Shown one piece after another: positions 22,649-25,600 of a stretch of DNA of 33,206 nucleotides. Below the pieces are notes generated by a model that searched no databases, had not been told where the DNA came from, and saw only the letters and a list, made by a program, of their open reading frames with translations. The stretch is from Planctomycetota bacterium (GTDB lineage: Bacteria > Planctomycetota > Planctomycetia > Pirellulales > Lacipirellulaceae): NCBI GenBank assembly GCA_003576855.1, contig QEVI01000085.1, forward strand, positions 1 to 33,206, given 5' to 3'. Every line of letters begins with the position of its first letter. Positions within the stretch are counted from its first letter, which is position 1. The position numbers and the translations under genes were made by a program.

Positions 22649-25600
22649 ATGCTCGTCCAATCGGCTGCCGCCGACCGAAACCTCCTGTTCGGCATTCTCG
22701 CCGTGCAGATGGATTTCGTCACGGCCGAGCGGCTCATCGCCGGCATGAATGCTTGGGTCCTCGAGAAGTCGAAGCCGCTCGGCGCTCATTTGCTCGATGC
22801 GGGCGCCCTGTCGCCCGATGCCCACGATCTGCTTCAAGCGCTCGTTGACAAGCACATCGAACAGCACGGCGGGCGGGTCGAACAAAGCCTGGCCGCCCTA
22901 AGTTCCGCTGAGCCGATCTGTCAGCAGCTTGCCGACATCCACGACTCCGACGTACAGGCGAGCCTCATCCTTGCCGGCGGCGCCACGCCCCGCAGCGATC
23001 GGCACGCCACGGTCGCCATGCCGCGTCGGCCGCCGCCCGGCGAGGAACAGCGATTCCAGATCTTGCGGCCCCATGCCATGGGCGGTCTGGGCAAGGTGTC
23101 GGTGGCTCGCGACAAGCAATTGAACCGCGAAGTCGCCCTCAAAGAGCTTCAGGACCGTCACGCCGACAACCCGGACAGCCGCGCTCGCTTCTTGCAGGAA
23201 GCCGAGATCACCGGCGCCCTGGAACATCCGGGGGTGGTGCCCATCTACGGTCTGGGCCAATACGCCGACGGCCGGCCCTTCTATGCCATGCGGTTTATCC
23301 GCGGCGACAGCCTCGCCCAGGCGATCGACCGCTTTCACCGCCAGGCGGATGCGGCCTGGAGCGGAGCGGCCGACATGCTCCACCTGCGGCGGTTGCTGGG
23401 CCGATTTCTCGATGTCTGCAACGCTGTCGAATACCCCCATAGCCGCGGCGTGCTCCACCTAGCCGCGGCGTGCTCCACCGCGACCTGAAGCCGGGCAACA
23501 TCATGCTTGGCCAGTACGGCGAAACGCTCATCGTCGATTGGGGCCTCGCCAAGCCCCTCGGTCGCGCCGACGTTGACGCCGCTACGCAAGTAGCCGATGA
23601 CCGGGCGGCGACGGTCTTCCAGGAGCCGGCGCTGGAGTTGCAATCTGGATCGGGCTCGACGCCCACGCAGATGGGTTCCGCCCTGGGCACGCCCGCGTAC
23701 ATGAGCCCGGAGCAGGCCGCCGGCCGGTTGGACCAGCTTGGCCCGGCGAGCGACGTCTATAGCCTGGGCGCTACGTTGTATGTGCTGCTTACCGGCGTGG
23801 CGCCCCAGAACGACGATGATCTGGGCGTGGTGCTCCAGCGCGTGCAACGGGGCGAGTTCCCCCGACCGCGAGAGGTCAAGCCGGCCGTGCCGCGGGCCTT
23901 GGAAGCGGTGTGCCTGAAGGCCATGGCCCTCTCGCCGGCCGACCGCTATCGTTCGCCCCGCAAGCTCGCCGAAGGAATCGAGGCGTGGCTCGCCGACGAA
24001 CCGGTCGCCGCCCTTCCCGAAGGTCCGTTGGCCCGGACGTCCCGCTGGATCAAGAGACATCGTACGCTCGTCACCAGCGGCGCCGCGATGGTCCTCGTCG
24101 CGCTGGCGGGATTGATCGCGGCCAATCTCTGGCTGCGGGCCGCAAACCGGCGAGAGCACGACGCCAAGAACGCCGCCGTCGCCGCGCAGCGGCAGGCCGA
24201 AGCCGCCCGCACCGAGGCCGAGCGGCAGACGGCCCGAAACCAAGCGCTGCTCGCCCTGGCCCAAAAGTCGCTCCAGCGATACGAGACGCTCAGCCGATCC
24301 GACGAATTGACCCGCTACGGCATGGAGAAGCTCCGCGGCGACCTGCTGGAAGCGGCTCTGGAGTTCTACGCCGCGCTCGCCCAGCAGGCGGGCGAATCCG
24401 AATCGGCCCGCGCCGGCCGCGCCGATGCCCTACACCGGCTGGGCGGCGCCTATTGGCAACTGGGCCGAATGGCCGAAGCCGTCAAGGCCTACAATGGGAC
24501 GCTGGACGTCTACAGAGCCCTGGAGCGCGACTACCCCGACAACGCCGCCTATCCCTATGGCGCCGCCAAGGCGCTGTCAACCTTAGGCGAGATCCGCAAC
24601 GAAGGATACGACGCCGGCGCGGCCGCGCCGCTGCTCGCCGAGGGTCTTCAACGATTCCGCCGCCTGCACCTTGCCAGCCCCGGCGACGTCGACCTGGCGG
24701 CTCGCTTCGCCTACCTCCACTCGCTCGAAGGCGAGCGGCTTCGCCAGCTCGGCCAAATGTCCGAGGCCGCAGAGGTATTCGCCCGCGGCATTGAGGTCCT
24801 GCGATCCGTTAAACTTGAATCGCTCGATGTCGCGAAAAGCCGCGACGTCCGCTATCAGCTCAGCCGAGCGCTGAGCCAACTGGCCAGACTCCAGACGCAT
24901 GCGCTATGGCAGTTCAAACCGGCTCGCGAGCATTACGACGAAGCCATTGCCATCATGCGCGGCGTCTACCAGGAAGCCCCTGAGCTCGGCGACTGCGCCT
25001 TTACGCTCGCCCAAATCCTCCGCAACTCCGGCGACCTCTACGGACGCGAATTCTATTTGGAGCAAGCCAAGGCGGCGTACGAGGAAGGTCTCGCCGTGCT
25101 CGCCGCCCTCGAACAGCGGCACCCCGATGTTCCCCATTACCGCCAGGAACGGGCCGAGCTGCACCAGTCGCTCGGCGGACTGCACGCCCCCTTCGAGCCC
25201 GGCAACATGACCGACGACGGACTTGCCCACGCCGAACAAGCGGCGGCGATTGGCAAACAACTCGTCGCGCGATTCCCCGAACAGGTTGATCGGCGGGTGG
25301 CCCTGGCGCGTTATCAAAGCTCGCTGGCCCACCTGTACCTGATCCGCGGTCGCACCGATGAAGCCCAAGCCGTGTACACCGAAGCCTGCGACACGCTGGC
25401 GGCGGTCGGCGAAACCACCGGCAAACACGTGGACGTCCTCTATACGCTGGCCGAAATCCAATACACCGTCGCCGATCAGTTGGCCGACTCCGGCCGCACC
25501 GACAGCGCCTTGGCGCTATTGGAGCAATGCGAGCAGAACCTCAATCGACTTACCTCAACCGCTCCCCAGTTGGGCGAAGCCTATCTCTCGCTGGCGAATC

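Follow-up and report, generated by a model that had tools for sequence, protein, structure and literature searches.

A perfect 20-bp duplication in the catalytic loop of a planctomycete-type Ser/Thr kinase gene as a probable assembly scar

The window analyzed here is a stretch of 33,206 bp that makes up the entire contig C195. The draft genome is fragmented (5.11 Mb, 417 contigs) and, judged by its gene content, is probably that of a planctomycete assembled from a metagenome. A Ser/Thr kinase-TPR gene on its forward strand (22649-26220) is cut by a 20-bp duplication in the catalytic loop. The question raised by this locus is whether the kinase was recently lost, is switched on and off reversibly, or was broken only during assembly, the three readings that the original prediction offered.

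The unit TAGCCGCGGCGTGCTCCACC is present twice back to back in the window, at 23440-23459 and at 23460-23479, with zero mismatches. Tandem Repeats Finder (TRF) reported exactly 2.0 copies, a period of 20 and 100% identity, in agreement with the perfect tandem duplication that had been predicted. In 33 kb, a tandem copy of 20 bp with no mismatch would arise by chance with a probability of about 3e-8 (33,206 x 4^-20). The identity between the copies ends at 20 bases on both flanks, and this missing extra homology at the borders does not discriminate between the hypotheses. The repeat had been placed exactly before the Arg-Asp codons; the unit actually ends one base within the Arg codon (CAC C/GC GAC, the slash marking the end of the unit).

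Two kinase fragments result on the forward strand. The upstream fragment (22649-23488, 279 aa) runs from an ATG at 22649 to a TGA at 23486-23488, just past the duplication, and the downstream fragment (23470-26220) comprises 916 aa counted from a GTG at 23470, in a frame of 925 open codons where about 900 had been predicted. Both fragments score above the curated cut-off of the Pkinase profile (PF00069), the upstream one at profile positions 10-121 and the downstream one at positions 120-199, followed by a TPR region. Because the two cover consecutive parts of the profile, they represent one kinase cut in two, and the split within the catalytic loop is thus confirmed. When only one copy of the unit is counted, the open frame would comprise 1193 codons, as the gene is found in relatives. 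The gene resembles the planctomycete-type Ser/Thr kinases in which a Pkinase domain is followed by TPRs, whose orthologs in four same-genus genomes each have one uninterrupted frame of 1210-1254 codons, with 51-65% identity over the downstream part; it differs from these only by the 20-bp duplication and by one adjoining Ala-to-Pro codon.

This CCC codon (Pro, 23435-23437, forward strand) lies just upstream of the duplication, so that the catalytic loop reads YPHSRG, whereas YAHSRG is found in all eight orthologs. Pro was found at this position in none of the 28 tabulated catalytic loops. The codon adjoins the spacer and was read directly, the count of invariant columns having passed over that position. 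It could be a contig-end error or a second mutation. The expectation that removal of one copy would restore a complete kinase with normal motifs therefore held for the open frame and failed at this residue.

The dN/dS ratios against the same-genus orthologs are 0.11-0.24 on both fragments, which places both under purifying selection. The gene was therefore functional until very recently, or is still functional. A pseudogene formed by decay was considered and rejected, given these ratios on both fragments and the lack of any further stop; the prediction that no other decay is visible held only in part, because of the one odd Pro codon.

A real but very recent break would agree with the same ratios. 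According to this explanation, replication slippage produced a 20-bp tandem duplication that inactivated the kinase in the sampled population, an ordinary loss of one kinase among many. The duplication is perfect, the gene otherwise appears functional, kinase paralogs are numerous in the genome (24 matches), and the Ala-to-Pro change may represent another lesion. However, the break falls on a word that paralogs share, the contig bears signs of post-assembly joining, and no comparable gene-breaking perfect duplication occurs elsewhere in the 1.66 Mb sampled, so that we regard a recent loss as unlikely.

Comparison at the DNA level showed the segment in one copy and within one open frame in all eight relatives, none of which carried the unit twice or had any repeat there. 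This lack of copy-number variation bears directly on the proposal of a reversible phase switch, in which the 20-bp unit would be gained and lost at high frequency and the kinase would be phase-variable via its catalytic loop. The unit is, moreover, a lone two-copy repeat. Only precedent speaks for a switch, namely duplications within pneumococcal capsule genes, for which both states and reversion were reportedly seen in culture. The pneumococcal cases cap3A, cap8E and tts share with the present locus a short intragenic tandem duplication that breaks an open reading frame, but two states in culture are described there, whereas nothing points to a second state here. Phase variation by such spontaneous duplications was described earlier (Waite 2001, 2003, as cited in PMC4022640 and PMC11272040), and even a true switch at this locus would not be a novel idea. 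A reversible switch is thus unsupported and highly improbable, and of the three readings initially offered, an assembly error is the best supported.

Three independent observations point to such an error, the first being the sequence at the break. A 26-bp word at 23467-23492 (forward strand) recurs unchanged in another kinase gene of this genome, on C394, and positions 23479-23498 recur likewise in a third kinase gene, on C136. In de Bruijn assembly, short-word assemblers break at such shared words. Words of at least 24 bp common to the window and other sequence of the same genome (1.63 Mb compared) were found at five places, two of which are kinase motifs and one the right end of the contig itself. 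Two scans of named genome contigs detected neither a relative nor another copy of the locus.

Two other shared words were recorded. The last 97 bases of C195 (33109-33205) match the right end of C207 (L055) at every position, and the two contigs thus terminate within one repeat; Rfam gave no family above threshold for these 97 bases. A 28-bp word, CCATAGCCGCGGGTCAACGACCCGCCGG, lies between ATP synthase genes at 4028-4055 of the window and recurs in C277 (L140); it is an interspersed repeat capable of forming a hairpin (GCGGGTC...GACCCGC).

The second line of evidence comes from the contig ends. Among 236 contig ends, six pairs show exact overlaps, of 46, 21, 17, 16, 13 and 12 bp, and none was found when the identical test was run 60 bp inward as a control. 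Once these overlaps are merged, long open frames appear, among them that of another Ser/Thr kinase, which the contig ends had split close to the glycine-rich loop. End-to-end joining without collapse would yield a short perfect tandem duplication, and in four cases, where the overlap is not a multiple of 3 (46, 17, 16 and 13 bp), plain concatenation would break the frame. The 20-bp unit lies inside the observed range of 12-46 bp.

The third line concerns the order of the contigs, an argument that depends on an inferred numbering rule. In 140 sampled contigs, sizes follow two interleaved descending series, from which 35 deviate, all of them too long for their place. The script tagged 34 of the 35 as longer; the exception, C16 (8541 bp), had been compared with the wrong series and exceeds its neighbors C1 and C21 of the short series. 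At 33,206 bp, C195 is about double the 15,845-15,864 bp expected at its rank. Another over-long contig, C61 (6208 bp), contains a gap of 25 Ns at 1917-1941, and the piece to the right of the gap (4267 bp) agrees with its rank (4044-4462 bp). The over-long contigs, together with this match of the gap piece of C61, indicate that contigs were joined after numbering, and C195 itself is apparently the product of a join made after assembly.

The frequency of similar events was surveyed in about 1.66 Mb of sampled genome stretches. Among the 48 perfect duplications of at least 10 bp, only that of the window lengthens a frame by over 100 codons when reduced to one copy, the next gaining 82; a duplication of this kind is thus unusual here. 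The sampled sequence was also examined for a genome-wide excess of 20-bp duplications, and none was found; since overlap lengths vary, no fixed duplication length is expected. In a scan for near-perfect duplications, the top row (L091, 15175; 14 bp, 93%) lies inside an open frame of 1084 codons. Tandem repeats of 7-bp units recur across the genome, with units that differ by place (AGTGGCT, CCTGACA, TGATTTA, AATCAGA and others). They occur in the window at 6-35, 40-66, 3020-3051 and 3084-3109, that is, at the contig start and in intergenic gaps, and elsewhere at L021 5239-5326 and at L071 7842-8025 and 9259-9370.

We therefore assign a probability of about 0.8 to the duplication being an assembly scar from an uncollapsed contig overlap, the best-supported explanation because C195 is over-long, exact short end overlaps exist elsewhere, and the site is a word shared between paralogous kinases. 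The single copy in the eight relatives and the standing of the duplication as the only perfect one in 1.66 Mb whose reduction to one copy gains more than 100 codons lend further support. Two contigs would have overlapped by 20 bases at their ends, within the conserved catalytic-loop DNA of the kinase gene, and would have been butted end to end with one overlap copy left unremoved; the left-hand original contig is proposed to end with the first copy and the right-hand one to start with the second. The duplication, the excess length of the contig, the short end overlaps, the shared word and the single copies in relatives are observed, whereas we infer the placement of a join exactly at 23459/23460 and a single copy in the real molecule. 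In that case the kinase-TPR gene would be intact on the chromosome. Against an assembly scar, there is no N gap at the proposed join, and a comparable scar is absent from the other sampled over-long contigs. Such scars are rare among the joins, which suggests that the joiner usually trims or collapses overlaps. With a numbered piece of about 15.85 kb, C195 must contain another join, one that left no scar and whose position was not found.

Scaffold joins that keep both overlap flanks, and thereby duplicate sequence, were reported for IDBA-UD and CLC assemblies (Chen et al., 2020; PMC7111523). As proposed here, overlapping ends in those metagenome joins were joined uncollapsed and the overlap was written twice, but Ns separate the copies there, whereas they abut directly in the window. 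An overlap left uncollapsed has exactly the appearance of a frameshifting tandem duplication, and in drafts joined from overlapping contigs, breaks are likely to fall in conserved kinase loops. Split kinases in draft genomes thus need a read check before they are called pseudogenes or switches.

Two other genes in the window were also recorded. A protein with an adenylate/guanylate cyclase domain is encoded directly upstream on the same strand (20478-22442), and it is possible that the two form a signaling pair. At 31308-31628, a 107-aa protein gave a whole-family match (E 3.9e-57) to DUF6793, a family of unknown function.
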